Under the pieces are notes generated by a model that worked only from the letters and a program-made list of their open reading frames with translations, was not told the DNA's origin and did not search any database. DNA of 25,250 nucleotides, taken from a virus. Of this stretch, positions 1,702 to 24,126 are shown piece after piece; the stretch's first letter is position 1; each line of letters begins with the position of its first letter. The translations under genes were made by a program, and so were the position numbers. The DNA lies in IMG/VR virus record IMGVR_UViG_3300003702_000016, positions 1 through 25,250 of that record; one strand, written 5' to 3'.

Positions 1702-1873
1702 CATTTTACTGGCTCGGCTTAAACGGAAAGAGGAAAGACTCTCAGAGAAGCCCCTCTATGACGAAAAGGATGTAGCCTCCTTTAATATGCTCATTGGAGA
1801 GATCAGAGAAATCAAGAATGTACTTGACCTTGATCGTTTGATCCGTGAGACATTAACCCATGATGACGAGTGA
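1577..1873 (+). CDS. Small phage protein overlapping portal end
   Basis: Unrecognised 98-residue protein. The first 20 residues are Asn-rich and are simply the other frame of the portal's CAA/CAG repeats. The rest looks like a genuine soluble helical protein: REKLEYLLSLQEDPRWIQL, then a basic helix and an acidic C-terminus. Small helical proteins of this type are commonly found just after portal genes. The ATG at 1577 has no good ribosome binding site. Alternatives such as the TTG at 1661, with GGGAGAAG about 13 bases upstream, would cut into the helical core, so the start is uncertain. The stop lies three bases before the next ATG, which suggests coupled translation. The function is unknown; an accessory head-assembly role is only a guess from position. 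Confidence 0.6.
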   Translation: MNLFNKNNSNNRLQNKNSSLDREKLEYLLSLQEDPRWIQLSDILLARLKRKEERLSEKPLYDEKDVASFNMLIGEIREIKNVLDLDRLIRETLTHDDE

Positions 1874-1876
1874 CCT

Positions 1877-2668
1877 ATGCTAGAAGCACCTCCCGTTGGA
1901 GAAATGCCTGAGCAAGAGCCAACAAATACAGGGGCAGAAGAAGAAGTAGCTGAGTTAAAAAAACAATTAGCTTCAGTTACTAAAAGCTATGATGATATTC
2001 GACCTCATGCTGATCGTGCATATAGTGCTCAGCAGAAGAAAGAGGGAGAGAATCAGGAGTTGAGAGCTAGGCTTGCGGTGATAGAACGTGAGAACGAACT
2101 AAATACCCAGGCTAATATGAATAAGGATGATGATGAATTGTCGGAAGATGACTTACGAGTGATCGAAGATTTCCCTGAAGTCATGAGAACTTCAGAAAGA
2201 ATTGCAGATCGTTTAGTAAGGAAACAGATGGCAGAATTCAGATCCCAAGAACAAGAATCGTTTGATGACAAGGTAAGTCGGTTTGTTGAAGAAAAATATG
2301 ATGCGCCTATCAATGAGTTGAACCAAAAGTTTGATTCAATGTCAAGGCAAACATACTTTGACGGGCAGCTTGGGCATGGTGTTTGGCCTAGTATTGAAGA
2401 CGACCAGTCTTTTATAGAGTGGGTTAATAAGGATTCAATGTATAGGACGGCTATGACTCAGGGTGATAATGAGGCAAAAGTACAGGTTATTAAGATGTAT
2501 ATGGAACAAAACGGAAGTGGTGGGCAGATGTACCAAGGCCAAGATCCGCAGGATCTTAGAAGGTATCAAGCTTCACAACTGATGGGAGGTTCCCAGTCTC
2601 AATCCGCAACAGCAGATCCGACTCAAGGCTTAACCGGCGAAGCATTATTTGATGCTATAGACGAGTAA
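1877..2668 (+). CDS. Putative scaffolding protein
   Basis: A 263-residue acidic, Gln/Glu-rich protein immediately before the major capsid gene, the usual place for a scaffolding protein that directs procapsid assembly and leaves before DNA fills the head. A coiled coil is predicted by eye at residues 22-75 (VAELKKQLASVTKSYDD onward), followed by an acidic patch (NKDDDELSEDDLRVIED) and a second helical region at about 105-155. Residues 160-200 hold aromatic residues (GHGVWPSIEDD, SFIEWVNKDS) and could be the capsid-binding part. The Gly/Gln/Ser-rich tail ends in TGEALFDAIDE. The family was not recognised from a specific motif. The call rests on composition, length and position; a head-maturation protein is an alternative. 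Confidence 0.65.
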   Translation: MLEAPPVGEMPEQEPTNTGAEEEVAELKKQLASVTKSYDDIRPHADRAYSAQQKKEGENQELRARLAVIERENELNTQANMNKDDDELSEDDLRVIEDFPEVMRTSERIADRLVRKQMAEFRSQEQESFDDKVSRFVEEKYDAPINELNQKFDSMSRQTYFDGQLGHGVWPSIEDDQSFIEWVNKDSMYRTAMTQGDNEAKVQVIKMYMEQNGSGGQMYQGQDPQDLRRYQASQLMGGSQSQSATADPTQGLTGEALFDAIDE

Positions 2669-2678
2669 GTTTTTAGTA

Positions 2679-2728
2679 TCTTGTCCTCTTACTTATTACT
2701 TATAATTTAAATCTTTAATAGGACAAGA
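2679..2728 (+). promoter_or_regulatory. Inverted repeat covering capsid gene RBS
   Basis: TCTTGTCCT (2679-2687) is perfectly complementary to AGGACAAGA (2720-2728), separated by 32 bases. The right arm contains the AGGA ribosome binding site, seven bases before the capsid ATG at 2731. In mRNA the nine base pairs would hide this site. The loop contains TATAAT at 2701-2706, which resembles a -10 box. The best -35-like match is TTGTCC at 2681-2686, but its 14-base spacer is too short for an ordinary sigma-70 promoter. It could be an RNA switch on capsid translation, an operator or a late promoter; none of these is demonstrated. Confidence 0.4.
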
Positions 2729-2730
2729 CA

Positions 2731-4008
2731 ATGGCTACTACATGGGTAGGTGGTTCTCCAACAACCGCACATACTAGGGGCGGAACCGGACAGGTAACTG
2801 TAGCAGGAACCATGAAATATGGTTCTCTGGATGAAACGGAGGCCATTAAAATACAGAAAAAGTTTCTGTCTATTGCAAAGAGGAGCATGATATTTGCTCG
2901 TTTTGCACAGAAAGAAACGAAGGAACGACAAGGCGGACTTGAAGTTCGTTGGAAACGGTTTGAGAAGTTTGGTCTCCCGTTGGTTCCGTTGGCTGAGGGC
3001 GTAAAGCCTCCTGCCGACAGTTTGCTCCAGACCATCATAAAGGTGAAGTTGAATCAATTTGGTTCATACGTTGCCACAACTGATGTTCTTGTAGCAGCAG
3101 CACAAGATCCAATCATTCAGCAGATTACTGAACGACAATCAATTCAGGCTGCAGAATTAATGGATTTTCTCACCTATTTACATGCACGTTCTGGTACTCA
3201 GGCAGCTTTTGCCGGAGGTTCAGCCAGAGCATCTGTTCAAAAAACTCTCGGGAACCAGATTGGCGTTAACGCAGGAACTCCTGGGACAGCAAATACAAAC
3301 CTTCTCGATGTTGCAGTTCGTACACTGGAATATCAGGAAGCACGTAAGATTGCTAAGCAGATGACCCCATCTCCTAAGTATAATACTGAGCCAGTACCTG
3401 AAGCATATGTTGCTGTAGGTCATACTGATCTTCGTAAGGATATTGAAGGGCTTCCCGGATTTATTCCTTATGCGAAGTACAGTAATAATGGTCAGCAAAT
3501 GCTACCTGGAGAAATCGGGGCAGTGGGTGTGATTCGTTTTATTCTTACAACCCAAGCAGCACCATTCGGGAAAGATCCGTCTGGTACTGAATACCTAAAC
3601 TTGAGTATAGATAGTACACAGGGATCAAGTTATGTCCCCGGTCATACTGGACAATCGTTTGGTTCGACTGCAGGTACTGTTGCTGATACTAATAGTTATG
3701 GTAAAGCAGGAGCAACCGGGCAAGGTGGTAATGCCGTCAGTGGCGTAAGTGGTCATGCGATGGTAACGACTGTTGCTGGGACAAAGTTCCAGGTTTATCC
3801 TGTACTTATATTTTCTGCAGAATCTCTGGGGTGTGTAACACTCTCTGGTTATGATGCAGTTATACCTAAGGTTGTGATGCCACAACCTGCAGTAACTGAT
3901 CCTCTGGGTCAGTCTGGTTCAGTGGGCTGGAAAAGCTGGTATGCTTGCCAGATCCTGAATGAAGACTGGATCTATCGGATCGAAGTTGCATGTTCTACTC
4001 TAAGCTAA
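2731..4008 (+). CDS. Major capsid protein, N4-gp56 family
   Basis: Major head shell protein, 425 residues, in the usual length range for the N4-gp56 family of HK97-fold capsid proteins. Supporting segments are YVATTDVLVAAAQDPIIQQ at about 113-131, the helix ERQSIQAAELMDFLTYL at 134-150, and AYVAVGHTDLRKDIEG with the following GFIPYAKYS at about 225-251. Next come MLPGEIGAVGVIRFILT at 257-273 and the late strand FQVYPVLIFSAESLG. The family typically has the motif VGHTDLR.DI and a GE.G strand after it. Residues about 283-350 form a Gly/Ser/Thr-rich stretch between the last conserved strands, perhaps a surface loop or insertion. AGGA at 2720-2723 supports the ATG at 2731, and this site lies in an inverted repeat. 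The gene directly follows the scaffold-like gene. Confidence 0.9.
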   Translation: MATTWVGGSPTTAHTRGGTGQVTVAGTMKYGSLDETEAIKIQKKFLSIAKRSMIFARFAQKETKERQGGLEVRWKRFEKFGLPLVPLAEGVKPPADSLLQTIIKVKLNQFGSYVATTDVLVAAAQDPIIQQITERQSIQAAELMDFLTYLHARSGTQAAFAGGSARASVQKTLGNQIGVNAGTPGTANTNLLDVAVRTLEYQEARKIAKQMTPSPKYNTEPVPEAYVAVGHTDLRKDIEGLPGFIPYAKYSNNGQQMLPGEIGAVGVIRFILTTQAAPFGKDPSGTEYLNLSIDSTQGSSYVPGHTGQSFGSTAGTVADTNSYGKAGATGQGGNAVSGVSGHAMVTTVAGTKFQVYPVLIFSAESLGCVTLSGYDAVIPKVVMPQPAVTDPLGQSGSVGWKSWYACQILNEDWIYRIEVACSTLS

Positions 4009-4016
4009 GAGTGTGA

Positions 4017-4451
4017 ATGTCTAAAGGGTTTCAGGGGTGGGAACCACCTGCCCCTGTTTCAGAGCAGTTGTTTGAAAGTTCTATTATGGAGATTACATCT
4101 GATAGTCTCACTAATGAAGAGCTAGTTATAACGAATGCTCGTTTTGACCATCGTCTTTCTCCAAAGACACTGCCGGAGAGGATCTCTGTTGTTATGACAG
4201 AACCATTCCTGGGTATAGATGCAAAGATATGTGTTGGCAGGGTTAATCAGGCTAAAGAAGATGAGTTATATTTAAACTGGACGGAGCTGCCGGATGTCCC
4301 TTATTCCTTTCAGCAAAAGCCAGAATCTATTTTTATTCCACCGGACGAATCAAATCATATAATTCGTCTAAGTTTCAGGCTGCGGGGGGATGATCCTCCT
4401 AAGTCTGGACGAATCCTTTTCTTTATAAAACACAGGTTAATATGGCATTAG
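4017..4451 (+). CDS. Unknown structural-type protein after capsid gene
   Basis: Unrecognised 144-residue protein, eight bases after the capsid stop and overlapping the next gene by ten bases. No signal peptide or membrane segment is visible. The sequence is probably mostly beta strands, with alternating hydrophobic residues in ERISVVMTEPFLGIDAKI and HIIRLSFRLRG, and ends SGRILFFIKHRLIWH. The ribosome binding site is weak (AAGAG about six bases before the ATG), so translation may depend on ribosomes finishing the capsid gene. Its position between capsid and adaptor suggests a head decoration or head-completion part, but nothing in the sequence proves it. Confidence 0.65.
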   Translation: MSKGFQGWEPPAPVSEQLFESSIMEITSDSLTNEELVITNARFDHRLSPKTLPERISVVMTEPFLGIDAKICVGRVNQAKEDELYLNWTELPDVPYSFQQKPESIFIPPDESNHIIRLSFRLRGDDPPKSGRILFFIKHRLIWH

Positions 4452-4897
4452 CAGGCGGAATGATCCCAGCAGGTGAATATGGGGATACACTTAATAATCC
4501 AATGTATGATTCAGGTCGTAAGAAGACAGTCTCGGTACATCATCAATTCGGGCAGGATATAGCTCAAGAAGTTGGGAAAGATCTTAAAGTTCCTGAAGGC
4601 TGGGGTTGTGTAGTTATTGGGTTTGGTGATGATCCATCACAGATGGGTCCGGTAACAGTAACACATAATGATTGGGTACTAAGGTTCCCAAGAAATTCCA
4701 GGCGTGCAATTCCTCCTGGGCATTTTGATATATTAATGAATTGTGTTGAGAGACGATATATTCAGCCAAGTGAAGGTGCTCCTCTTACAGGGTACGATGC
4801 AAACAGATATAATGTACAGGTTCTAAAATTCCCAAAAGAATCTACACTTAATCAGGAGCAGATCCAAAGTGATATGCAAGAGGTAGAAGTTGCATGA
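4442..4897 (+). CDS. Unknown head-region protein
   Basis: Unrecognised 151-residue soluble protein. It overlaps the previous gene by ten bases and the adaptor gene by four (ATGA), so it is probably translated as part of one coupled chain. The N-terminus is Gly/Asn-rich (AGGMIPAGEYGDTLNNPM). A central stretch VPEGWGCVVIGFGDDPSQM leads to a basic, Pro-containing segment (RFPRNSRRAIPPGHFD), and the last 20 residues are acidic and Gln-rich. No catalytic motif, signal peptide or membrane segment is seen. From position, a minor head or connector protein is plausible; confidence is in the gene being real, not in its role. Confidence 0.65.
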   Translation: MALAGGMIPAGEYGDTLNNPMYDSGRKKTVSVHHQFGQDIAQEVGKDLKVPEGWGCVVIGFGDDPSQMGPVTVTHNDWVLRFPRNSRRAIPPGHFDILMNCVERRYIQPSEGAPLTGYDANRYNVQVLKFPKESTLNQEQIQSDMQEVEVA

Positions 4898-5814
4898 TTG
4901 AGTTACTCGATATTAGATCACGAGTAGTAAATATTCTACAGGATGCCAGCTTTATAAGATGGACAAAGACTGAATTGAATAATTATATTCATGATTCTTT
5001 GCTTGATCTTGTTAGGGCGATCAGGCTGCCTGTAACAGATATAAGTGTTTCAATTGGTTCCACTGCATATTTAGTTCCTCTGCCAACTGGGTTAATGGAC
5101 ATTAATGGTGGGTCTATAGATGGTCGTGAGTTACCTGTTGTTACTACATCTGAGATGAAAAAGTTGCATTCTGAAGGTAATTTGCCAACTGTGATTAAAG
5201 ATGGAGAATATTCTATTACTCAGATATTCGGCAATTCCTTATGGTCATCAAGTGAGGATTGGAAGGCAACTTCAGGGAAGACACAAGCCTTAGTCTTAGA
5301 TCAGAGATCATCAGAGACAGTGAGGGTCTGGCCTATTCCATCATCAGATGAAACCTTATTACTTACTGGGACATTAAGGCCAACAAGGATGAGTGATGAA
5401 GTACCTTATATTTATAATGATGTTAGTGATCCAGATAATACAGTATTCAGGTATATAGTAACTCCACTTAATGGTTGGGTTACAGGGACTGATCTCATTG
5501 ATGATGCCGGTCAATCTCTTATATTTAATGAAACAGATCAGACATTATCATTAGATGATAGTAATGTTTTTTCTTTAGATGATATTAATTATCAGACTAC
5601 ATGTTCTATTGATGCAGTATGGGTTGATGCTTTAACATTTGGAACTTTGGAAAGAGCATATCTTAAGGAGCATGATCTACGGAATGTAGAAAAAAGTGAG
5701 TATTTTAGAAATAAGAAGATGGGAATGATTGCAGATGCTGACAGAGTGGAACCTATAAATCCAGCTAGTATAATAGGCGGAGTTAATTTTAACAGATTGG
5801 TCGTGAGGAGATAA
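4894..5814 (+). CDS. Head-tail adaptor-like protein
   Basis: A 306-residue protein that resembles phage adaptor proteins (DUF6682-like; analogous in place to P22 gp4), which sit under the portal and join it to the tail. The N-terminus has the pattern of these proteins: IRSRVVNILQDASFIRWTK followed by ELNNYIHDSLLDLVRAIRLP, i.e. a helix, 'RWT..EL..yi.d', and a second helix. The C-terminal helical part is CSIDAVWVDALTFGTLERAY with LKEHDLRNVEKSEYFRNKKM, matching the family's all-helical end. The middle (about 160-230) is beta-rich and acidic. The family assignment is from recognised motifs, without a profile search. The start ATG overlaps the previous stop as ATGA. Confidence 0.75.
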   Translation: MIELLDIRSRVVNILQDASFIRWTKTELNNYIHDSLLDLVRAIRLPVTDISVSIGSTAYLVPLPTGLMDINGGSIDGRELPVVTTSEMKKLHSEGNLPTVIKDGEYSITQIFGNSLWSSSEDWKATSGKTQALVLDQRSSETVRVWPIPSSDETLLLTGTLRPTRMSDEVPYIYNDVSDPDNTVFRYIVTPLNGWVTGTDLIDDAGQSLIFNETDQTLSLDDSNVFSLDDINYQTTCSIDAVWVDALTFGTLERAYLKEHDLRNVEKSEYFRNKKMGMIADADRVEPINPASIIGGVNFNRLVVRR

Positions 5815-6206
5815 TGGGTGTAGCTATTAAATTTAGGAAAGGTACTGCTGCTGAACATGCTGATTTTGATGGAGCAGAAGCAGAAGTTACTGTTCAAACA
5901 AATACGTCAACGAACCCTTGGAGTCTTCGTGTACATGATGGTTCTGGTGCTGAAGGTTATTGGGTTGCTGGAGTAGACGATGTAGCTACTCTTACTAATA
6001 AAACATTAGATGATGTAGTTCTTTCAGGGACAATTAAGGATACTTCTGGTAATCTTCTTGGCACTATATCAGGTGGTAAGATTGTGTTTGGGGCAGGTGC
6101 TCTTACTTTAGATGCACCTTTTATAATAGATCAGGGCACTACAAAAGCTTTGGAAATAATGATTGCTCGTGTAGCAAGAAAAAATCAAATGATATTGGGA
6201 GATTAA
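5814..6206 (+). CDS. Short tail fibre, tropism-determinant-like N-terminus
   Basis: A 130-residue fibre-type protein. Residues 4-48 follow the pattern 'ikfRrGTaaeHa.f.gaeaEvtv.tdt..lrvHDG', here IKFRKGTAAEHADFDGAEAE and LRVHDGSG, known from the N-terminal domains of phage fibres and major tropism determinant-like proteins, where it mediates trimerisation or attachment. A fibre motif follows, VATLTNKTLDD (about 56-66), of the 'a-LtNKTl' repeat type. The end is short and lacks a receptor-binding domain, so it may be a base piece onto which other fibre parts assemble. The ATG overlaps the adaptor stop by one base (TAATG), with GAGGAG upstream. It is the first gene of the fibre block. Confidence 0.7.
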   Translation: MGVAIKFRKGTAAEHADFDGAEAEVTVQTNTSTNPWSLRVHDGSGAEGYWVAGVDDVATLTNKTLDDVVLSGTIKDTSGNLLGTISGGKIVFGAGALTLDAPFIIDQGTTKALEIMIARVARKNQMILGD

Positions 6207-6207
6207 T

Positions 6208-6597
6208 ATGGCTGAAAGATATATGCGTTATGTAACAGAAGTTGCTGCTGGTGCATCGGCACAACAAGTTTACGAAGCACCAAATGATGGAGCTGCTGGT
6301 GCAGCAGATTCTGTCATAATAGGATTTCTTATATGTAGCAGATCAACATCTGCTGGTACTGTAACTGTTGAAATTAAAGATTATGCTACCAATGGAACTG
6401 GATTAACTCAAAAAACAATAGGAATTGCAGATACAATACCACTTCCAGCAGACACATCAATAGATCTTATTCCCGGTAAATTGGTGTTGCAACATGCAGG
6501 CAATAATGAAGCTACCCCGGTACTTACAGGAGATACAATAAATATAACGTCAACACAAGAATGTGATATAACTATTTCAGTAGTAGAGAGGGTCTGA
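6208..6597 (+). CDS. Small beta-rich fibre-accessory protein
   Basis: A 129-residue protein without signal peptide or membrane helices, rich in Thr, Ala and Ile in alternating patterns typical of a beta sandwich. Its core (SVIIGFLICSRSTSAGTVTV, then LPADTSIDLIPGKLVLQ and LTGDTINITSTQECDITIS) aligns by eye with the 109-residue gene at 8004-8333. The two are probably paralogues of one small virion domain. It starts one base after the previous stop, and its stop overlaps the next ATG (TGATG). Because it is placed between fibre genes, it is likely a fibre-associated or decoration protein. The family role is not established, so this is inference. Confidence 0.6.
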   Translation: MAERYMRYVTEVAAGASAQQVYEAPNDGAAGAADSVIIGFLICSRSTSAGTVTVEIKDYATNGTGLTQKTIGIADTIPLPADTSIDLIPGKLVLQHAGNNEATPVLTGDTINITSTQECDITISVVERV

Positions 6598-7982
6598 TGT
6601 CAAAGAGTCCAGTATATATAGGTGCAGGAAGTCAGGAGTTAGCAGTTACATCTGCACTAAATATTATTGATAATGCAAATGATATATCACTTCAGCTCCA
6701 GACAGTTGTAGAATGGGTTTCATTAACAGATGGTACTACTGTTTTTGATTTTGTAGGCAATTCCCAGACTACTGAATATTCTGCAAAGGAATATGCACAG
6801 GGTACTGCTGCTACAGGTGGTACTGCAAAGCAATGGGCTTTGGGTGGAGGTTCCCATGTAGAGGCTACAGCAGTTACAGGAAGTAGTTATTCTGCAAGGA
6901 AATATGCAACTAATGCTGCTGCTTCAGCATCTACGGCTGAGGGTTATGTAGATGCATTTGATGATAAATATTTAGGTTCGCATACTACTGCTGTTAGGGA
7001 GGTAGGAGCAAATGTAGGAAAAGATAATGATGGGGATGCCTTAGATGACGGAGCATTATATTATGATACAACATTAGAGGTAATGAAAGTATGGGATGAT
7101 ACTGGTTCTGCATGGAAACAACTTACTCCAACATCAGGTCAACAAACAAATATTGATGCTGCTGTTGCAGATGCAGTAGATATTGGGAAAGTAGCTGCCA
7201 TAGATACTGAAATAGGACAATTAGCTGTTCTTGGTTCTGCTGGAGTTGATATAACTACTGTCTCAAATATAGGAACTGATGGTGCTGATGTATCAACTGT
7301 TGCTGGTATAACAGCAGGAGATGTATCTAAAGTAGCTGCTATTACGACTGGTGATGTATCAAAAGTAGCCGTTATAACTACTGGAGATGTTAGTAAGGTT
7401 GCAGCAATTACTACTGGAGATGTAGGCAAGGTTGCGGTAATTACAACCGGAGATGTCAGTAAAGTAGCTGCAATAACTACTGGTGATGTAACTAAGGTTG
7501 CTAGTATTACAACTGGAGATGTAACTAAAGTAGCAGATGTTGATGGGGAAGTAGCCCTTGTAGCAGCAGTAGATGGTGAAATTGTATTGCTTGGTACAGC
7601 TAATATGACACATCCGACTACAGGTCATTTAGCATATTTGGGTACAAGTGCTATGGCTAACACCACAAATGGTTATCTAAAGGTACTTGGTAATGCCACA
7701 GTAACAGATGATATGGCTTTATTAGGAGCTACTGGAGTAATAGGTGATATAGAAACAGTTGCAGATAATATAAGTAGTGTTAATGACTTTGCAGATAAGT
7801 ACAGAATCGCAAGTTCTGCTCCTGGTTCAGATAATGATGAAGGAGACTTGTATTATAATACTGCGACTAATTCACTAAATTTTTATACCGGATCTGCATG
7901 GGAATCGTTTGGACTTAGTTTATCACAAACTCAAGCAGAAGCAAGTAACGCAGCCGTGGCTATGTCAATAGCCCTCGGATGA
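6597..7982 (+). CDS. Tail fibre with 11-residue repeats
   Basis: A 461-residue fibre-like protein. An Ala-rich, probably helical region at about 60-125 contains repeated YSAKEYA/YSARKYA units, a pattern often seen in tail fibre shafts. Residues 150-175 and 412-437 each hold a module of the form 'G.LYY.t.....k.w..sgsaW' (GALYYDTTLEVMKVWDD; GDLYYNTATNSLNFYTG) that is shared with other fibres in the window. Between them, residues 235-311 are seven consecutive copies of VAxITTGDVSK-type repeats, then degenerate copies, probably a trimeric coiled or beta-helical shaft. No catalytic motif is seen. The ATG overlaps the previous stop. A tail fibre shaft is the best reading; receptor specificity cannot be told. 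Confidence 0.75.
   Translation: MSKSPVYIGAGSQELAVTSALNIIDNANDISLQLQTVVEWVSLTDGTTVFDFVGNSQTTEYSAKEYAQGTAATGGTAKQWALGGGSHVEATAVTGSSYSARKYATNAAASASTAEGYVDAFDDKYLGSHTTAVREVGANVGKDNDGDALDDGALYYDTTLEVMKVWDDTGSAWKQLTPTSGQQTNIDAAVADAVDIGKVAAIDTEIGQLAVLGSAGVDITTVSNIGTDGADVSTVAGITAGDVSKVAAITTGDVSKVAVITTGDVSKVAAITTGDVGKVAVITTGDVSKVAAITTGDVTKVASITTGDVTKVADVDGEVALVAAVDGEIVLLGTANMTHPTTGHLAYLGTSAMANTTNGYLKVLGNATVTDDMALLGATGVIGDIETVADNISSVNDFADKYRIASSAPGSDNDEGDLYYNTATNSLNFYTGSAWESFGLSLSQTQAEASNAAVAMSIALG
7299..7529 (+). repeat. Seven in-frame 33-bp repeats in fibre gene
   Basis: Seven tandem 33-base units encode VAGITAGDVSK, VAAITTGDVSK, VAVITTGDVSK, VAAITTGDVGK, VAVITTGDVSK, VAAITTGDVTK and VASITTGDVTK. 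The amino-acid pattern is strongly kept, but the third codon positions differ between copies (for example GTAGCTGCT, GTAGCCGTT and GTTGCAGCA). This implies an old array held by protein-level selection rather than a recent DNA expansion. Two shorter degenerate units follow (VADVDGEVAL, VAAVDGEIVL). Confidence 0.9.
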
Positions 7983-8003: not shown

Positions 8004-8333
8004 ATGGCAAATGCATTTAAGAATAGAACACTCAGGGCAGTAGGGACAAGTCCGGTGGATGTTGGAGCAGTAGTAGGCGGCAGCACCGAGACTACTCTTA
8101 TAGGGATGACTCTGGCTAATATAACTTCTGGGGTTATATCAGTTACTGCCACTCTGAATGATGGTTCTAACACTACGCATATAGTAAAAGATGCCCCGGT
8201 TCCAACTGGAGGTTCACTTATACTTCTCGGAGGGGATCAGAAGGTTGTGCTTATGACTGGGGATAAAGTAATAATAACCTCAAATACTGCATCAAGTGTG
8301 GATGTGATAATGAGTTTCTTGGAGATTACCTAA
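8004..8333 (+). CDS. Small beta-rich virion protein
   Basis: A 109-residue protein of a type I recognise from marine phage structural regions, with no firm named role. The start MANAFKNRTLRAVGT is followed by TTLIGMTLANITSGVISV, VKDAPVPTGGSLILLGGDQ and VVLMTGDKVIITSN, and it ends in VDVIMSFLEIT. The alternating hydrophobic pattern suggests a compact beta sandwich. It aligns with the 129-residue protein at 6208-6597. AAAGGA lies a few bases upstream of the ATG, and the stop overlaps the next ATG by one base. A fibre-associated or tail decoration protein is likely. Confidence 0.65.
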   Translation: MANAFKNRTLRAVGTSPVDVGAVVGGSTETTLIGMTLANITSGVISVTATLNDGSNTTHIVKDAPVPTGGSLILLGGDQKVVLMTGDKVIITSNTASSVDVIMSFLEIT

Positions 8334-10288
8334 TGGCATACTTAGGACGTAAAGGGGCAGCAGCTCCAATTAATGCAAGTGATATTCCAGACGATAGCAT
8401 AACGAGTGCTAAAATTCTTGCGGATGCTGTAGGTTCATCAGACCTTGCACCTGACATAGCACTAACAGGTGGTTCCGTTGGTATTCCTTCTGTTACTACT
8501 GCAAACCGGCCCGGAGAGTCTGGAGGAACAAATGCTTCTCAGACTGCTACTGTTGGTATGTTGATTTACAATTCCACCATTGGAATGTTGCAACAGTATA
8601 ATGCATCTGGATGGGCTTCAATAGACTCTCCACCTACAGTTACTTCACTCAATTATCCCGGTGATGATACTGCATTGGATACTGTTGGTGAATATAATGA
8701 TGCAACTTGTGATTATGATGATGATGAAACTATAACACATGATACTAATACAAAAATGGCTGTAGGAATGTCCGTTTCTGGTACAGGGATTCCAGTTGGG
8801 GCAACTATTGCTTCCGTTACAAGTACCACAGCATTTGAACTTAGTGCATCAACTACAGGTGGAGCAGTTACTAATGGTACATTAACCTTTAATACACAAA
8901 CACTCATAATTTCTGGTTCTAATTTTCAAGCAAGTCTAACTGTTACTATTGATGGTACTGCTCCAAGTACAGTCTCAAGAGATAGTTCAACTCAAATTAC
9001 TGTTACTGGTACTCCTGCAAAGACAGCAGGAACTAAGGTTGATGGTTTGGTAGTAACTAATCTAAGTGGTTTGTCGGCAAGTATTGATGTTGACTATAGT
9101 CCTTTACCCGGCTGGTCTTCTCCTGCATCTGGGAATCTTTTAAGTGATTTTAATGGATTAATTACTGAGATTGCCCTAACTGGAGGAGCTGATACAGTCT
9201 CTTATGCAATAACAACTGGTCAATTACCTACTGGTTTAACTATAGGAACTGTTGATGGAGATATTAATGGAACTATGAACGCTAGTGCCGCAACTTATAT
9301 TTTTACTGTTGATGCAATAGATGCACAGGCACAAAGTTCTCCAAGATTATTTAATATAATATCCAAAGGTGCATTACCTACTGGTGGAATAATATCAACT
9401 TATACTGGTTTTCGTGTTCACAAATTTATATCAGCAATGTCTCAGTCCTTTGATTTTGAATGCGATGGGGATTTAACAATTGGGTATGTTATTATTGCTG
9501 GTGGTGGAGGCGGTGGATGGGGAACTGGAGGCCGAGGCGGTGGAGGAGGAGCAGGAGGAATTAGATATAATACTGGAGCTATAGTGAATTATGCATTGGC
9601 TGCGGGTAGTTACACTATTGTAGTAGGTACAGGAGGAGGTGAAGCAACTGCTAGCAACGATAGGGGAGATAGTGGTCTTAATTCTTCTTTCGATAGTATC
9701 ATAGCATCTGGTGGTGGAGGTGGAGCAAGTGTCACTTCTCCGGGGACTGGCGGTGGAGATGGTGGTTCAGGTGGTGGAGGAGGAGCTTCTTCTGTTGATA
9801 GTCCGGGTTCTGGTAATGTAGGAAATCATACACCAGTAGAAGGATATGATGGCACACACGGTCAGTCCGGTAACTGGGCTGGTGGAGCCGGAGGCGGAGC
9901 CGGGGGTATTGGTACAGTTGGAGTTAGTAATCATACTGGTGGTAATGGTGGTGTAGGAGCTTCAACATTTGTTAATGGATCAGCTTCGGACACTGCCGAT
10001 TTTTTATGGTCTGCACAAGCTGGAACAAATTCTTCAAATGCAGCCACTTCTGGTTTAGGCTCTAATCCCGGTACACTTTATATTGCTGGTGGTGGGGGTG
10101 GAAGTTGTGATGCAGCCAACAATAATGGAGGTCTTGGTGGAAACGGTGGCGGTGGTCGATCTTTAAATGATGCATCTGACTCTGTTGAACCAGTTATAAA
10201 TACTGGTTCAGGTGGGTTTGGACAACGATCTGGTCAAGGAGATGGAACTGGAGCTAATGGAATAGTAATAATCAGATACGCAGTATAA
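8333..10288 (+). CDS. Multidomain adhesin fibre with glycine-rich tip
   Basis: A 651-residue modular fibre. Residues 1-60 are a fibre N-terminus (MAYLGRKGAAAPINASDI and SITSAKILADAVGSSDL). Residues 71-97 carry the 'GMLIYNSTIGMLQQYN...W' module shared with other fibres here. Residues 100-256 look like an IPT/TIG immunoglobulin-like domain (PPTVTSL, then TLIISGSNFQ and ITVTGTPAKTAGTKVDGLVV) interrupted at 120-187 by another small domain. Residues about 262-345 resemble a putative-Ig (He_PIG) domain (YAITTGQLPTGLTI). From about 375 to the end is a glycine-rich domain starting YVIIAGGGGGGWG and closing GIVIIRYAV. In other phages such domains pack as polyglycine helices at fibre tips and bind receptors. 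The start overlaps the previous stop (TAATG). Confidence 0.8.
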   Translation: MAYLGRKGAAAPINASDIPDDSITSAKILADAVGSSDLAPDIALTGGSVGIPSVTTANRPGESGGTNASQTATVGMLIYNSTIGMLQQYNASGWASIDSPPTVTSLNYPGDDTALDTVGEYNDATCDYDDDETITHDTNTKMAVGMSVSGTGIPVGATIASVTSTTAFELSASTTGGAVTNGTLTFNTQTLIISGSNFQASLTVTIDGTAPSTVSRDSSTQITVTGTPAKTAGTKVDGLVVTNLSGLSASIDVDYSPLPGWSSPASGNLLSDFNGLITEIALTGGADTVSYAITTGQLPTGLTIGTVDGDINGTMNASAATYIFTVDAIDAQAQSSPRLFNIISKGALPTGGIISTYTGFRVHKFISAMSQSFDFECDGDLTIGYVIIAGGGGGGWGTGGRGGGGGAGGIRYNTGAIVNYALAAGSYTIVVGTGGGEATASNDRGDSGLNSSFDSIIASGGGGGASVTSPGTGGGDGGSGGGGGASSVDSPGSGNVGNHTPVEGYDGTHGQSGNWAGGAGGGAGGIGTVGVSNHTGGNGGVGASTFVNGSASDTADFLWSAQAGTNSSNAATSGLGSNPGTLYIAGGGGGSCDAANNNGGLGGNGGGGRSLNDASDSVEPVINTGSGGFGQRSGQGDGTGANGIVIIRYAV

Positions 10289-10300
10289 AAGGAAACAAAT

Positions 10301-10963
10301 ATGGCATACATAGGTCAGGAACCCGGACAAGGAGTTGCTCAACGTAGCATCTTCACGGCAGTAGCCGTTACAGATACTGTTACTGCAGACGATAATTCTT
10401 TGCCCTTGAATTACACAGTAGGACAGGTGAGTGTTTACCTGAATGGTGTGAAGCAGGTAGTGGGGGATGACGTAGTTGCAAGCAACGGATCGACTTTGGT
10501 GTTCGATGATGACTATGCAATAGGTGATGTGATTGAGGTAATAGCACTCTCTGCATTCAGTCCTGCAGACACAGTACCTGCAACAGGAGGAACCTTCTCA
10601 GGTCAAGTTACTCTGCCATCTCCAGTAATCAACACAGGAGTCTCAGGATCAGCAATCCTTGATAGTGATGCAATGTCTGGTGTTTCTGCAACAACTCTTT
10701 CATCATCTGAGTCTATTAAGGCGTATGTAGATGCTTCAGGAGGAGTAGCTGGTATTTCAACATCAGCAAATGCAACTGCAATAACTATTGCGGCAGATGA
10801 GACTGTTACTCATGCAGAGATGGCAACTTTTTCTAAACTTTTGCAGAATCCAGATACAATATCTGCAAACATAACTATAGCATCAGGTTATAGTGCAATG
10901 GCAATCGGGCCAATTAATTTTACTGGAACAGTAGCAGTAAATGGTTTTTTAAGTATAGTTTAA
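10301..10963 (+). CDS. Tail fibre protein, N-terminal type
   Basis: A 220-residue fibre protein. The start MAYIGQEPGQGVAQRSIF resembles the MAYLG start of the preceding gene and is common in marine phage fibres. Residues 37-90 contain YTVGQVSVYLNGVKQVVGDD and FDDDYAIGDVIEVIAL, a recognisable phage fibre domain of the form 'G.v.VylNGvkq..g.Dy.a..G..i.F...l..gD.ievv.f'. A linker follows (TGGTFSGQVTLPSP, SSSESIKAYVDASG), then a beta-rich end of about 60 residues. No glycine-rich tip is present. The next gene supplies one, so the two might form one fibre assembled from separate chains; that is inference. AAAAGGAAAC lies just upstream of the ATG. Confidence 0.75.
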   Translation: MAYIGQEPGQGVAQRSIFTAVAVTDTVTADDNSLPLNYTVGQVSVYLNGVKQVVGDDVVASNGSTLVFDDDYAIGDVIEVIALSAFSPADTVPATGGTFSGQVTLPSPVINTGVSGSAILDSDAMSGVSATTLSSSESIKAYVDASGGVAGISTSANATAITIAADETVTHAEMATFSKLLQNPDTISANITIASGYSAMAIGPINFTGTVAVNGFLSIV

Positions 10964-10981
10964 TAATATAAGGAGCAAATT

Positions 10982-11653
10982 ATGGCAACTTTATCGGTAG
11001 GTGGAAACTTGTACAGAGGTTTTCATGGAATGACTGTAATTACAGCAACTGGAGCAACCACATGGAATAAACCTTCAGGTGTAACTGCAATTATGGTTTA
11101 TTTAACTGGAGGTGGAGGAGGAGGAGGTTCTGGAGAGTCTACTTTTAATTCCCTTGGATCAGGAGGAGCAGGAGGAACTGCAATAAAATGGATCACCTCT
11201 GGAATTGGTACAACTGAAACTGTAACGATTGGTACTGGTGGGCCCGGTGGTGCTGCTAGTGCTGGGAATAATGGTACAAGAGGTGTTACATCTTCTTTTG
11301 GTAGCCATTTTACAGCAACTGGAGGACACTATGGAGGTACTGCTGCACAGTTTGTTGCTTTTGGAGATAGTGAAAGAGGCAACGGAATAGGTGGAGACAT
11401 TAATTTATTTGGTGGAGATGGTCTGATTTATCAGGGAGGACTTTCAAGTAGTGATGAAGCTGGAGGAGGAGTTGGTGGTGGTTCATATTGGGGTAGTGGT
11501 GGTGGTGCTGGTGAAAGTACTGGTGCTTCTGCTGGTAGACCCGGTAGAGCTTATGGAGCAGGAGGAGGTGCAGGTGATCATGATGGTGGTAGTCAATACG
11601 GTGGTGGTGGTGCTGGCAAATCTGGTATTTGTGTAATCTATATGTATGTGTAA
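10982..11653 (+). CDS. Glycine-rich tip protein
   Basis: A 223-residue protein that is almost entirely a glycine-rich domain. After a short lead, VTAIMVYLTGGGGGGGSGES begins the domain, with further GAGG, GPGG, GGGVGGGS and GGGAGKS runs, and it closes with SGICVIYMYV. This is the same architecture as the C-terminal domains at 8333-10288 and 11705-12967, but without a fibre shaft. Comparable standalone glycine-rich adhesins (gp38-type tips of T-even-like phages) attach to the end of a separate fibre and read the receptor. By analogy it could cap another fibre in this block. AAGGAG upstream of the ATG is a strong ribosome binding site. Confidence 0.7.
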   Translation: MATLSVGGNLYRGFHGMTVITATGATTWNKPSGVTAIMVYLTGGGGGGGSGESTFNSLGSGGAGGTAIKWITSGIGTTETVTIGTGGPGGAASAGNNGTRGVTSSFGSHFTATGGHYGGTAAQFVAFGDSERGNGIGGDINLFGGDGLIYQGGLSSSDEAGGGVGGGSYWGSGGGAGESTGASAGRPGRAYGAGGGAGDHDGGSQYGGGGAGKSGICVIYMYV

Positions 11654-11704
11654 TTTATATGTATAAGTAAAGGTAAAAATAATGATAACCCAAAGGAGTA
11701 ACCC

Positions 11705-12967
11705 ATGAGCAGAGCACGAATCCTAGCAGACTACGTTAGTTCAGGTGATGAACTGGCAGATAAGCTCGATCTTTCTGGTGGGGCAATGACTGGAGCAATC
11801 ACCACTAACTCAACCTTTGATGGAGTGGATGTTGCTACGAGAGATGCTACCTTAACAAGTACAACTACTCTAGCTACTGCTGCTGCACCAAAGGCTAGTC
11901 CAATATTCACAGGAGTTACAACAGCCGCATCTCTCGTCCTCACACCCGGCTCTGCTCCTGCTACAACAGAAGGAGCAATTTATTATGATTCTGCAACTGA
12001 TGCAGTTAAGATTCGTGCTTCAACAGCTTGGGAACAACTAAGTAATAAGTTTACTGCCTCTGGTGGTACTGAAACAACATATTCATCAGGTGGCATTAAT
12101 TATAAAGTTCATACATTTACGACATCAAGTTTTTTTATTCCGGTCACAGCCGGCTCTATAGATGTGCTTATAGTTGCTGGAGGAGGAGGAGGAGAACAAA
12201 AAAATTCTTCTGGTGGAGCAGGTGGAGGAGGAGTGCTTCATTATACACACATGGCAGTCTCTGCCCAATCTTATACTATAGAAATTGGTGATGGTGGAGC
12301 TGGAGGCGTTGGATTCGCAGGAGCAGCTGCAACAAATGGGGAAAATACAATTGCTTTTGGTTCAACAGCATATGGAGGTGGTGTTGGTGGTCACAGAGAT
12401 TCTGGCACAGCCCCAACAGCTGGTGGTTCAAGTGGTGGTTGTGGAGGGCCAAGTGGAAACAGCAATCAAACTTCCCCAGCAGCCACCCAAACAGACAGAA
12501 CTGCTCAAGGGGGTATTTGGTATGGCAATATTGGAGGAACCAGTGCTGCGGCCCAAAACTATGAAGCCTCTGGTGGTGGAGGAGCAGGAGCAGTAGGTCT
12601 GAATGGTGTGTATGCCACTACTGCTGGTGCCGGAGGTGCTGGAATTCAAATAAATATAGATGGTAATAATTATTATTGGGCAGGCGGTGGAGGAGGTTGT
12701 GGTTATGATGAACCAAATGGTAATGGTGGTATCGGTGGCGGTGGTGGTGGTGCTACCCACTTTGCAGGTTCCTACCAAACCAATGGAACAGGTGGTGGCA
12801 GTGCTATAAATTCGGGTACAGCAGGTAATTGGAGCTCCACATCCTCTGACTGTTATGGCGGTAGTGGAGGTGCTAATTCAGGTGGTGGTGGTGGCGGTAG
12901 TTATTACAATTCTGCTACAGGTGGTACTGGTGGATCAGGTATAGTAATTGTGAGGTATGTAGTATGA
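11705..12967 (+). CDS. Tail fibre with glycine-rich tip
   Basis: A 420-residue fibre. Residues 1-60 hold a fibre N-terminus: SRARILADYVSSGDELADKL, then LSGGAMTGAITTNSTFDGVD, a 'GG.mtG.i' fibre repeat. Residues 87-113 contain the 'G.IYYDSATDAVKIR..taW' module shared with the fibres at 6597 and 8333. From about 150 to the end is a glycine-rich tip domain that begins with IDVLIVAGGGGGEQ and closes with GIVIVRYVV, nearly the same closing strand as at 10288. AAAGGAG six bases before the ATG gives a strong start. The stop overlaps the next gene as ATGA. A receptor-binding tail fibre is the natural reading; the target is unknown. Confidence 0.8.
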   Translation: MSRARILADYVSSGDELADKLDLSGGAMTGAITTNSTFDGVDVATRDATLTSTTTLATAAAPKASPIFTGVTTAASLVLTPGSAPATTEGAIYYDSATDAVKIRASTAWEQLSNKFTASGGTETTYSSGGINYKVHTFTTSSFFIPVTAGSIDVLIVAGGGGGEQKNSSGGAGGGGVLHYTHMAVSAQSYTIEIGDGGAGGVGFAGAAATNGENTIAFGSTAYGGGVGGHRDSGTAPTAGGSSGGCGGPSGNSNQTSPAATQTDRTAQGGIWYGNIGGTSAAAQNYEASGGGGAGAVGLNGVYATTAGAGGAGIQINIDGNNYYWAGGGGGCGYDEPNGNGGIGGGGGGATHFAGSYQTNGTGGGSAINSGTAGNWSSTSSDCYGGSGGANSGGGGGGSYYNSATGGTGGSGIVIVRYVV

Positions 12968-13284
12968 GTCATTTTGCAAAAATAGATAAAGATAATATAG
13001 TCACAAGAGTAATTGTAGCAGAACAGGATTTTATTAATTCTGGTGTAGTTGGAGATTCATTTCTATGGATACAAACTAGCTACAATAATAACTTTCGTAA
13101 ACAGTATGCTGGAGTTGGATACACATACGATAAAGTAAACGATGTATTCATTTCACCAAAGCCTTATGCATCATGGGCATTGGATGCCTCATTCGATTGG
13201 CAACCTCCTACTGCAATGCCAGATGATGATAAGAGATATAGTTGGAATGAAGACACACAAGCATGGGATGAATATGAACAATAG
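12964..13284 (+). CDS. Conserved small phage protein (MSHFAKI type)
   Basis: A 106-residue protein. I recognise the overall pattern from cyanophage and other marine phage genomes: MSHFAKIDKDNIVTRVIVAE, WIQTSYNNNFRKQYAG, YTYDKVNDVFISPKPYASW and a Trp-rich acidic end (YSWNEDTQAWDEYEQ). It is usually annotated as hypothetical or structural and often lies near fibre genes. There is no signal peptide or membrane helix. The ATG overlaps the stop of the glycine-rich fibre (ATGA), so it is likely co-translated with it. A fibre accessory or virion protein is plausible. The exact role is unknown. Confidence 0.75.
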   Translation: MSHFAKIDKDNIVTRVIVAEQDFINSGVVGDSFLWIQTSYNNNFRKQYAGVGYTYDKVNDVFISPKPYASWALDASFDWQPPTAMPDDDKRYSWNEDTQAWDEYEQ

Positions 13285-14531: not shown

Positions 14532-14924
14532 ATGTGGAATTTTAAAAATATAATAAAATCATTTACCTTTGATGAGATGGCATGTCAGAACTGCAGGCAC
14601 TGTGGAGGTGTATCTGATATGAATGAACACTTTATGATGAAGCTTCAGAATCTTAGAGATTCATGTAAGTTTCCTTTGCCAGTTAATTCCGGGTTCCGTT
14701 GTGCCCAAAAAAATATTGATTGTAATGGACACGTGGGTAGTGCTCATCTAACAGGGGAAGGAGCAGATTTACGAGTAGATAGAGACAAGGCAAGAGTTGT
14801 TATACAGAAAGCAATTGAAATGGGGTTTTCAGTAGGTATTCAGCAGAGGGGTAATTCCAGGTTTATTCATGTTGATACTAAAATAAGAAAATCAGGTAAA
14901 GCTAACCTATGGAGCTATGCTTGA
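14532..14924 (+). CDS. M15-family peptidase, probable endolysin
   Basis: A 130-residue zinc peptidase of the M15 type (D-Ala-D-Ala carboxypeptidase or L-Ala-D-Glu endopeptidase), which cuts peptide bonds in peptidoglycan and probably acts as the phage endolysin. Residues 50-58 hold PVNSGFRC. The zinc signature is SAHLTGEGADLRV with His72 and Asp79, and FIHVDT near the end supplies His113 and acidic Asp115. This matches the family's S.H..G.A.D and H.D motifs at the expected spacing, in a short single-domain protein. The start has three close cysteines (CQNCRHC at 18-24). There is no signal peptide, so export would need the holin. AGGGTGG precedes the ATG. A virion-associated peptidase is the alternative. 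Confidence 0.85.
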   Translation: MWNFKNIIKSFTFDEMACQNCRHCGGVSDMNEHFMMKLQNLRDSCKFPLPVNSGFRCAQKNIDCNGHVGSAHLTGEGADLRVDRDKARVVIQKAIEMGFSVGIQQRGNSRFIHVDTKIRKSGKANLWSYA

Positions 14925-15271: not shown

Positions 15272-15531
15272 TGAAGCTTAGTATTGCAAAACGATTTGTA
15301 TGTGAAGTGGAGGTTCCAATGGGAGACATAGTTAGTTTTTTAGACAAAAGAGAATATTCCTTTCTTGAAAGAAAAGATAGTTCAAGAAGAATGAAAGAAA
15401 GAGATGAAGCTGGAAGAGTAGAACGATATGCATATCCAATGCAAGCACCATTTAAACTGGTGGATGATCAGAGTAATATTCGTGAAATAGTTAAAAAGAA
15501 TCCATATAAGAAGGACAAGGATAATGCCTAG
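15271..15531 (+). CDS. Unknown small charged protein
   Basis: Unrecognised 86-residue protein. It is soluble by eye and highly charged: FLDKREYSFLERKDSSRRMK in the middle and a Lys-rich end IVKKNPYKKDKDN. There are no cysteines beyond residue 11, no membrane segment and no known motif. The ATG overlaps the preceding stop (TGATG), and the gene overlaps the huge tail gene by eight bases, so all three are probably translated in a chain. An assembly or chaperone role for the following tail protein is possible but is not shown. Confidence 0.55.
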   Translation: MKLSIAKRFVCEVEVPMGDIVSFLDKREYSFLERKDSSRRMKERDEAGRVERYAYPMQAPFKLVDDQSNIREIVKKNPYKKDKDNA

Positions 15532-18500
15532 AACTGTTCTCAGACAATTTACAGGTGGTTTATCTAATGAGATAGACCCACAGAACCTTCGTGAAGACCA
15601 AGGTGAAGAGGCTTTTGATATTAATCTTAAGGGTCATGCTCTTGAACCAGGTGAAAGCACAGTCCCTATTAATGCTGCTGGTCATTATTATTATCGTGGT
15701 GAATGGATTGAAGATTCTAAGGCAGTATCATTTGAAGAATCAGGTATAGGTGTTGTCAAGACCTTTGACAGCAAGAGACCTGTGTTTGAAGAGATAATAA
15801 AAGATGATGAGAATGTATCAAGAAATCTTGGCCCCCCACTTCCTCCTGCAGCAGTAATAACTGGGACAATAGTATCTGAAGGTACAAGAGGAGAACGTCC
15901 TGGGGAAGGTTCTCACTTACTTAAACTCCCTGAGACTACTCTCGGAGGAGTAGATACAACTCAATCTCTTGAATTACATCAGGCAGATGTAACAACTGCT
16001 ATAGATGATATGCACTATTATGACGGACAGCCATATTGGATTGTAAAGTCAGGAAGCAATAATGAGAATTGGGTTATTAGGACTAGGAAGTGGACACTAT
16101 CAGGTGGTGTTGTTACATGGCTTACTACATATCTTGATTCTACAACATTAACTCATAATTCCGGTGGAAGTTTCTTTAAAGATGGTTACTTTGTTTGTTG
16201 GGATGATACGTATATAGATAGTGTTGCACTTAGTTATACTGCAATGACGGCTGATGTTCAGAATACTATTCTTGATGCTGATGGAGGTGATGCAGGTACA
16301 GCATTTTCATCTAGTTTTTTATCAGGTGCAACAGGCAATAGTATAACAGGAGTTGATATTGATGGTAATGGTATAATATCTTTTTCACAAAGAATGACTA
16401 CACCCAATACCACCCCAGATAAGACACTGTATCAAAATGACAGAAGTGATCATGAAAGGTGGTTGAGAATGCCATCTGATTCATCAAATAGAGGATGCTT
16501 TGTAGTTTTCTTAAGGGATGGGATGGCTCATGCTGATTCAGAATCTACAAATGTGGTAGGAGACTATAAGACGGAAGCTCTCAGCCCACCACCTAAAGTA
16601 TTTACTACTGAAAAAGGAGGTGATACAAATATATTCCCAGGATGGGAAACTCCAACTGGTAAGATGAAAACCATAGGTCGTGAGTATGATGGGCATGGTG
16701 TAACGCCTGTCAGTGCAAAGGATAGGTTGCAGAAGGATTTAGATGGTCGTGATGATGTAGATTTTGGGATTAAGTATGCTGTAATATTTGCTAAAAATGA
16801 TACATGGGTTAGTGTGAGGTATCAAGATCCTACAGGTAAGCCTCCTGAGATGCTTGTTATTCCGAATGCATTGCAAAGAGGAGGAAAAACTGGAGAGCAG
16901 GCTGCCAAGGATGTTACGTGTACTAGAACCTTACAGTCTGATAAGGTTAAATCTACTTGGAGTGTTACTCAACATAGATTACCTACTGTATACTTTCTTG
17001 GAAGGAAGATAGGAGGAGGTGACCATCTGTTTTTCATGGGATATGGGCAGATATGGTATAAAGATACTGTGAACATTGAATTAACTTTCCCAACACTATC
17101 AATACATCATAATAAAGTTAAGTGGATATACACAGCTCCTAAAGATGGTGGATTCTCTAGTTATGCATATTATAATGTCTTTAAGTCTGAAGATTTAGGT
17201 ACTGATTATGCACGTAGGCATGGTAAATCTTGGAGAGATAGACAATTTCTGTGGGATTTTCAATCAACTCAAACTGGTAATAATGGTACTTCTCCAGATA
17301 GTAATACTGGTTCATGGAGTAGATTGGTAGGAGACGGGTCTGGCATGGGATTAAGACCAGGATGGCAGATAAAAGATCGTACAGGTGATGGTAGTTATAA
17401 GAATGGTACAGTTACATCTCCTACTGTAGCTGGGAAAATGCATAGGCTCTGTTCATTTTCACGACCAAATGGAACAGTAGTACAGCAAGAGGATTTCAGT
17501 GTATCAGAGTTATGGACATATGCTAAAATTTCAGGTGAAGATAATAGCATTTCATTTGCAGAGGCAACCAATAAGAATTTTCGTGTAGGAGATTGGATTA
17601 AGATAGGCTGGAATGGTACCAATAAAAGTATGCACCTAAATCTTGTTGGTACTGTGAGAAAAGAGATAGACGACCACTGGTCTGCCATTAAAATGGAGCA
17701 GACATTCATAACTGCTAAAATAATAGGAATAAAATCTGGCAAGCTTGAACTTTCTGATCCTGAATATGATCATAACAAAAATAAGAAGTACATAGATGAG
17801 GAATGTTATCCTTTAATAACTGGCTTCATAAAATATGATTCTAGTAGAAAAGTAACTGTGGATGAAGCAACAGGTGGCCCAGTTTGTTCTGTTATAAAAA
17901 GTGGTTTCTCTTCACATGTTTTAGTTGGTCATAGTACTGGTCGTTTATTCCTAGACACACCTCAGATAGGACTAACGGAAGATATAGTAGAAGTCAGGGG
18001 AGCTGGTGCTGAAGGAATTAATGCGGCTGGTTTTAATCAACTTGATTATACTCATAGGATTGATTGGACAGGTAATGAGGTTAGGGCTGTGGAACATGTG
18101 GTTGATTCTTATAGACCTAGAATTTTTTATACTAAAGGTGGGACACTTTATTCACAGAATGGAAGTAATAATTCAGATCCTCGTTCTGTTAACTTAAGTA
18201 TTAATGGTAAATATTATGTTGATGGAAAATATCTTACTCATATTGACAATAAAGATATTACAATTTATTCACCAAATCTTCAAGAAGAGTTTGTTAAGGC
18301 AAGACCTAAGTTACCATCAGGTTTAGGTTTGAAAGGTGAAATACAAGATGCAAGAACATTTGTCAACTCATCTAATGCAGTATTTGTATGTGTTAAGATT
18401 GGTGGTTACTGGAAGGTAGTTAGGACATCGAATATTCCTAAGGTTGGTGCAGAGACTTCTCTCTTAAATTATGACTTTAATAAACCTATAGGTTTTGATG

Positions 18501-23571: not shown

Positions 23572-24126
23572 ATGACAGTTGAAACAATAGATACAATGCA
23601 GACCCAGCAGATTGAGGATCTTCAGGATGACATTGAAGATCTTGCAGCTAAGGTCAACCTTGCAGTTACAGATGTAAATGAACTAACAACAAAACTTAAT
23701 AGTGTTATAACTGATATTGCAAATCTTGATTCAGTATTAATGGGCAGTGATGCTAATAACCAATATTCTCCATCAGGAAGTACATCAACAGATGGGATAT
23801 TAAAAAGGATAGATGAATTGTATGCAGCATTCTGGGATCATATTCACATGCCTCCTTTTTCAGTCTCAAATCAGGGGTTTAACTCATCACATCCTCCTTT
23901 TCAGGGAGGGCAGAACGTAATGCCTACTCATGCTACACCTGTTCCAAATTCATTAGCTGCAATAAGTCAAAGTAGTGTTAGTGGATATACTGCAACAGCA
24001 GTAGCAGCCACAGTAACAGGATCGTATACACCAGAAATTACAAAGTCTGCAATTGTATTAAAAAAGAATCCTGAGAATAGGGCTAGACAAATGGCTCGTA
24101 ATAATCTTAATACTGTGAGGGGTTAG
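23572..24126 (+). CDS. Coiled-coil tail protein, tandem paralogue 1
   Basis: A 184-residue protein. Residues about 10-55 form a coiled coil (QIEDLQDDIEDLAAKVNLAV, NELTTKLNSVITDIANLDSV). Next comes NNQYSPSGSTSTDGILKRID and a short motif with His and Pro residues (FWDHIHMPPFS). The C-terminus is Ser/Thr/Ala-rich and ends with a basic helix (KKNPENRARQMARNNLNTVR). The coiled coil, the 'NN.YSP.G.TS.DG.LKR' segment and the basic end recur in the next gene, so the two probably arose by tandem duplication. It starts two bases after the previous stop. A tail fibre base or tail tip component is plausible; the function is unknown. Confidence 0.65.
   Translation: MTVETIDTMQTQQIEDLQDDIEDLAAKVNLAVTDVNELTTKLNSVITDIANLDSVLMGSDANNQYSPSGSTSTDGILKRIDELYAAFWDHIHMPPFSVSNQGFNSSHPPFQGGQNVMPTHATPVPNSLAAISQSSVSGYTATAVAATVTGSYTPEITKSAIVLKKNPENRARQMARNNLNTVRG

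Follow-up and report, generated by a model that had tools for sequence, protein, structure and literature searches.

The DNA analysed here, called the window throughout, comprises 25,250 bases and is an IMG/VR virus record (IMGVR_UViG_3300003702_000016). It contains a locus of three genes ending in glycine-rich domains, named GLY1, GLY2 and GLY3, together with a fibre-like gene and a small partner gene. All features of the locus lie on the plus strand:

8333..10288, +, GLY1, 651 amino acids (aa): anchor (MAYLGRKGAAAP...), shaft and glycine-rich tip
9473..10285, +, Gly_rich_2 tip domain of GLY1: PF21722 and a hidden Markov model (HMM) built without window sequences (144 bits)
10301..10963, +, fibre-like gene between GLY1 and GLY2, without a glycine tip: weak PHROG tail-fibre matches
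10982..11653, +, GLY2, 223 aa: glycine-rich tip with almost no shaft, from a second subfamily (phrog_863, 2.6e-35)
11705..12967, +, GLY3, 420 aa: anchor (MSRARILADYVSSGDELA), short shaft and glycine-rich tip (phrog_2295, 4.4e-47)
12038..12964, +, tip domain of GLY3 as modelled: tumour necrosis factor (TNF)-like sandwich with 12 glycine-rich motifs
12964..13284, +, partner gene, 106 aa: phrog_7759 (2.2e-34), listed as "unknown function"

The three glycine-rich open reading frames (ORFs) are present, complete and intact. Their tip domains open with the strands GYVIIAGGGGGG (GLY1), IMVYLTGGGGGGG (GLY2) and DVLIVAGGGGGE (GLY3), close with GIVIIRYAV, GICVIYMYV and GIVIVRYVV, respectively, and consist of 32-35% glycine. 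Gly_rich_2 (PF21722, curated Pfam cut-off 24.3 bits) was detected above the cut-off in GLY1 (49.1 bits, 9.8e-13, aa 381-649), GLY2 (44.8 bits, 2e-11, aa 21-222) and GLY3 (56.9 bits, 4.1e-15, best stretch aa 140-372, the second stretch being the C-terminal part). The shaft of GLY1 carries a putative Ig domain (He_PIG, PF05345, aa 286-342, 1.5e-7). As a control, HMMs were built from relatives only, excluding the window sequences, and 300 glycine-run-preserving shuffles were scored per sequence. On the GLY1/3 HMM, GLY1 reached 144 bits and GLY3 169 bits, compared with a shuffle maximum of -11.8 (z 25-31). GLY2 scored weakly on this model (1.1 bits, z 5.2) and reached 175 bits on the HMM of its own subfamily (z 38; the best of 300 shuffles was below 0).

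GLY1 and GLY3 belong to phrog_2295, and GLY2, with its W-x-KP-x-GVT opening, to phrog_863. Profile comparison joined the two subfamilies with 96% probability (E value 3e-9, 98 columns). By sequence, GLY2 forms a separate subfamily within this kind of tip. An earlier sequence-only reading of this DNA had proposed three glycine-rich C-terminal domains at 8333, 10982 and 11705, one of them a tip with almost no shaft. The ORFs, strands, PF21722 matches and shuffles confirm the domains, and the nearly shaftless tip is GLY2. The genes were said to be side by side, which is nearly so: the fibre-like gene at 10301 separates GLY1 from GLY2. All three share PF21722 but fall into two subfamilies. The linked small gene at 12964, with its fibre-chaperone-like predicted fold, had been missed.

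The tip fold was assessed by modelling for the GLY3 domain, and by profile for GLY1 and GLY2. The AlphaFold2 monomer of the GLY3 domain had a predicted local distance difference test (pLDDT) score of 91.6 and a predicted template modelling (pTM) score of 0.92. Its best structural matches were the mycobacteriophage Bxb1 tail tip (Z 14.9) and the tail fibre gp24 of phage Pam3 (Z 14.8 and 14.3), the Z 14.8 match covering 192 residues of the domain model. The glycine-rich domains of the receptors ALK and LTK followed at Z 6.4-8.0, and PP01 gp38 gave Z 2.0 over 62 residues. The Pam3 fibre was also the best PDB match of both family profiles (E 0.006 for the GLY1/3 type, 1.8e-4 for the GLY2 type). 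Single-sequence phmmer searches of the three proteins against PDB gave no credible match. A tblastn search of GLY3 against cultured phages gave none either, probably because low-complexity filtering strips glycine-rich sequence.

In a 50-row alignment of GLY1/GLY3-type tips, 12 groups of at least three conserved glycine columns were found. The number of glycine-rich motifs is 12 in Pam3 gp24 and 10 in S16 gp38 (PMC9608196). By fold matches, profile matches and motif count, the tips are best read as gp24-like rather than gp38-like, and a polyglycine conformation is expected for them. The loops between the glycine groups vary in length and sequence, with a mean entropy of 0.44 bits in motif columns and 2.29 bits elsewhere, in keeping with the proposal of fibre-tip domains with variable loops. 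Loops that vary between close relatives, which the sequence-only reading had suggested looking for, were seen as well. In three of four close pairs the differences avoided the GG motifs (identity of 99, 90 and 100% there vs 71-77% elsewhere); the fourth pair was too alike to judge.

Some tips looked circularly permuted. In these, the strand motif ATGGT..G.YKVHTFTSSGTFTV, which usually precedes the opening strand, was C-terminal, after the closing GIVIIRY strand. Among 132 tips, 14 were permuted, 64 canonical and 52 undetermined; the permuted-looking ones include L153:7034, L159:4909, L166:7121, L148:256 and L147:7084.

The start codon of the partner gene lies inside the GLY3 stop (gtATGAgt), giving a 4-bp overlap. 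Besides phrog_7759, the protein matches phrog_14370 (7.6e-10), and phrog_7759 genes were annotated as hypothetical in the annotated cultured-phage records examined. The family is linked to glycine-rich genes. A glycine-rich ORF lay directly upstream in 61 of the 83 phrog_7759 genes having an upstream ORF, most commonly with a 4-bp overlap. Among loci recruited by GLY3 peptides, and not by the partner, phrog_7759 directly followed 16 of 38 glycine-rich genes compared with 0 of 158 others (p 1.8e-13). In these loci 34 of 44 glycine-rich runs, many of two or three genes and not dereplicated, ended in phrog_7759. Nine of 12 cultured phages examined had a glycine-rich gene directly upstream of phrog_7759: CRP-207, CRP-143, Melnitz-2 (two pairs), HTVC025P, HTVC008M, HTVC023P, HTVC104P, HTVC033P and Bellamy. 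Marine phages showed good conservation of the partner but variable tips.

Two other loci with several pairs were observed. One contig (L093:1-8731) carries three separate pairs of a glycine-rich gene and phrog_7759, a stronger form of the window array. The cultured Methylophilales phage Melnitz-2 (L226:5787-11014) has one canonical and one apparently permuted tip ending in its two pairs, and all but one of the neighbouring fibres are annotated as hypothetical.

The monomer model of the partner protein (pLDDT 88.2) had Pam3 gp25 as its first structural match (Z 6.0) and Mu Tfa as its second (Z 3.1), over residues 1-65. Its profile found no relative by sequence in PDB or Pfam, and neither the window protein nor 60 members of phrog_7759 matched the Pfam tail assembly chaperone families (PF16778, PF02413). 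The assignment is therefore based on fold and linkage, and the protein is a predicted fibre-tip chaperone, called chaperone-like and not a Tfa member.

GLY2-type tips in other contigs precede other small genes, of the phrog_1787 and phrog_8716 types, and one of these carries a PF16778 tail-assembly-chaperone domain. phrog_7759 never followed a GLY2-type tip in 11 unique GLY2-recruited cases. For the small protein after the GLY2-type tip in L084, no PDB relative was found. One GLY2-type small protein weakly matches phrog_14370 (E 0.006); because the window partner matches it too, their sequences hint at a common fibre-binding domain with different C-termini.

Exchange at the locus was followed in relatives. 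A head-protein search yielded 74 related contigs; in those whose gene order was compared, the order from the connector to the small gene at 8004 was kept, and the locus beyond it was not. The DNA of L007 was 95% identical to the window across 1-7132, with patches only beyond, and that of L069 was 85% identical across 1-6676 and dropped off after. In L043, whose head protein is 75% identical to that of the window, a GLY1 relative occupies the slot behind 8004; per 50-aa bin, its shaft is mostly 54-90% and its tip 32-54% identical. In the gene that follows, L043 joins the 10301 anchor to a glycine-rich tip, and a different tip stands on the GLY3 anchor (MTRARILADYVSSGDELA) there. In L031 a non-glycine-rich tip is attached to the GLY1 anchor (58% over the first 50 aa), the MATLSVGG leader of GLY2 sits before another tip in L069, and the end of the 10301 protein is found on another anchor in L027 and L069. 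Pfam scans of the non-glycine tips in relatives gave nothing above cut-off. A block of 82% identity (window 12857-13271) covers the end of GLY3 and the partner gene, and in L043 it stands at the end of a gene with a different anchor. Segments of the GLY1 shaft are common to contig L223 at 85%, and the other L223 genes match nothing in the window. The search with GLY1 found one relative only, because most of the peptides used for it came from regions that vary fast.

These arrangements are direct evidence that anchors, shafts and tip-plus-partner units are exchanged. They bear out the suggestion of swap-able tips: the same N-terminal anchors carry other tips in relatives, and near-identical phages lose similarity at this locus. 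Upstream, the gene at 5814-6206 encodes a protein of 130 aa, which contains the domain found at the N-terminus of the major tropism determinant of a Bordetella phage (PF18454 Mtd_N, 6.1e-9). Because this protein is so short, had no detectable lectin domain and is kept in relatives, the tip variation looks recombinational rather than the product of a diversity-generating system, for which no reverse-transcriptase search was made.

In our best reading of the locus, which we consider probable, gp24-like tips form an array that has a minimal fibre chaperone and is exchanged in cassettes. The locus would thus be a cassette of host-recognition fibre tips. Each glycine-rich gene would encode a fibre, probably trimeric, that a short N-terminal leader docks to the virion. 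The C-terminal domain would be a TNF-like beta sandwich bearing a bundle of glycine-rich segments, as in Pam3 gp24, and the variable loops at its distal end would touch the host surface and bind receptors. The 106-aa protein would be a minimal tip chaperone, acting as the fibre-binding domain at the N-terminus does in Pam3 gp25 or Mu Tfa. Recombination at conserved flanks would swap anchors, shafts and tip-plus-chaperone units, leading to different tips in the same slots of relatives, and several tips may be used concurrently. We see about an even chance that phrog_7759 constitutes a new chaperone family for fibre tips, minimal and single-domain, without the Tfa/gp25 trimerisation helices. Such a family would serve whole arrays of gp24/ALK-fold tips, and the two would be passed on together, in a single swap cassette, between phages that infect Pelagibacter, Roseobacter-type, Methylophilales and Synechococcus hosts.

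Several points weigh against this interpretation. Only the GLY3 domain and the 12964 partner were modelled, each as a monomer. The partner match is limited to residues 1-65, and its Z of 6.0 is below 8, a range possibly reflecting a common arrangement; Foldseek alone puts gp25 first, at E 0.29. The partner model has no helical trimerisation domain like that of gp25 and Tfa, and no helix past residue 25. Three of the 12 cultured phages (Greip, phiPsal1 and S-SSM5) carry phrog_7759 without a glycine-rich gene directly upstream, and in the window no small partner gene belongs to GLY2 itself.

Among the rival explanations, we think it unlikely, at roughly one chance in five, that a single tip is functional per host, the others being spare or decaying leftovers of recombination. 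Tip exchange is frequent and GLY2 lacks both a shaft and its own partner gene, as such an explanation would have it, but all three frames are intact, and unrelated marine phages, the cultured HTVC023P and CRP-143 among them, likewise have arrays of two or three intact glycine-rich genes. Somewhat less probable still is that the 12964 protein, instead of being a chaperone, remains on the tip in the virion, as a structural cap or as an accessory subunit for receptor binding. The same linkage and fold evidence speaks for this, and Mu Tfa and S16 gp38 are reported to stay on the tip in the virion, a property in which known Tfa-type proteins differ (PMC9608196, PMC7289586). However, the closest fold match, Pam3 gp25, was undetected in virions, and it keeps the receptor loops covered until its release (PMC9608196), and a partner that is conserved while tips vary is unlike a variable receptor contact.

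The sequence-only reading had labelled the domains gp38-type, which would make them adhesins seated on a separate long fibre, like those of Salmonella phage S16 or E. coli phage PP01. Both kinds share glycine-rich bundles and variable distal loops, and PP01 gp38 is a weak structural match. The label was not supported: the Pam3 gp24 and Bxb1 matches are far stronger, the motifs number 12 and not 10, the gp38 family was absent from the Pfam scan matches, and each tip is fused to an anchor of its own. We regard the gp38-type reading as very improbable. The high glycine content invites the explanation that glycine-rich coding sequence produces the similarity as a low-complexity artefact. This was ruled out by scores above all shuffles of each sequence, the confident GLY3 tip model and its specific structural matches, which leave it a negligible probability.

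The gene order around the tip locus is as follows: a connector (phrog_332), small genes, a major head protein (phrog_1357), a structural protein (phrog_399), the protein with the Mtd_N domain, a fibre that bears a repeat (6597-7982), the locus itself and a 2,428-aa protein (15524-22810), of which only aa 1647-1871 match an internal virion protein family (phrog_511). The virus is probably a tailed phage and probably marine; the marine origin is deduced from the cultured relatives of the partner gene and is not in the record. Within the fibre gene, a 33/66-base tandem repeat (7286-7536) codes for TTGDVSKVAAI-like units. A Peptidase M15 family protein (14532-14924; PF08291, 3.8e-13) is perhaps an endolysin. 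Two neighbouring genes, 23572-24126 and 24134-25249, have N-termini that look alike by eye (e.g. DVNELTTKLNSVITDIANL / DINQLAPKLTPIISNLNTL), which suggests a duplicated module.

In abundant marine phages, many receptor-binding proteins have no annotation beyond hypothetical. Where a gene ending in GIVIIRY is followed by a small MSHFAKI-type gene, the pair offers a simple genomic marker for a likely receptor-binding protein and for the protein that probably helps it fold. The linkage makes binding tests direct and gives phrog_7759 a testable function. The tip fold and the logic of a fibre plus a chaperone are already known (PMC9608196, PMC7289586, PMC10579305). No description of the linked minimal partner family and its marine-phage arrays was found in the papers searched, among which most subscription journals were missing, and we rate the novelty as moderate. 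The ALK-like glycine-rich fold would be used in phages as an exchangeable tip module.

The closest known system is the Pam3 tail fibre gp24 (7YPX, 7YFW; PMC9608196), which shares the TNF-like and glycine-rich distal domain, the 12 motifs, the closing strand (GIIIVQY in Pam3) and a small chaperone gene as partner. It differs in its N-terminal anchor and shaft, identity is 28% over structurally aligned residues, and the window phage has several tips with one partner per array. Pam3 gp25 and Mu Tfa (7YPX, 5YVQ) resemble the window partner in the gene position directly downstream of the fibre and, by fold matches below Z 8, in the predicted beta-sandwich of residues 1-65; the window partner lacks their helical domain and any Pfam or sequence-profile match, and may serve several tips. 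The Bxb1 tail tip (9D93 chain Q) has the glycine-rich tip fold but belongs to a different phage group and tail, and was compared by fold, not gene order. ALK and LTK share the TNF-like and glycine-rich architecture, yet they are animal receptor tyrosine kinases, larger and less similar. S16 and PP01 gp38 also have a glycine-rich distal domain with variable loops, borne as a separate tip on gp37. In the marine Alteromonas phages V22 (gp26/gp27) and A5 (gp8/gp9), a chaperone gene likewise lies directly downstream of the fibre, and fibre modules are common to distant phages; their chaperones are of the DUF4376 type, and a glycine-rich tip is not described in these reports (PMC7289586, PMC10579305).

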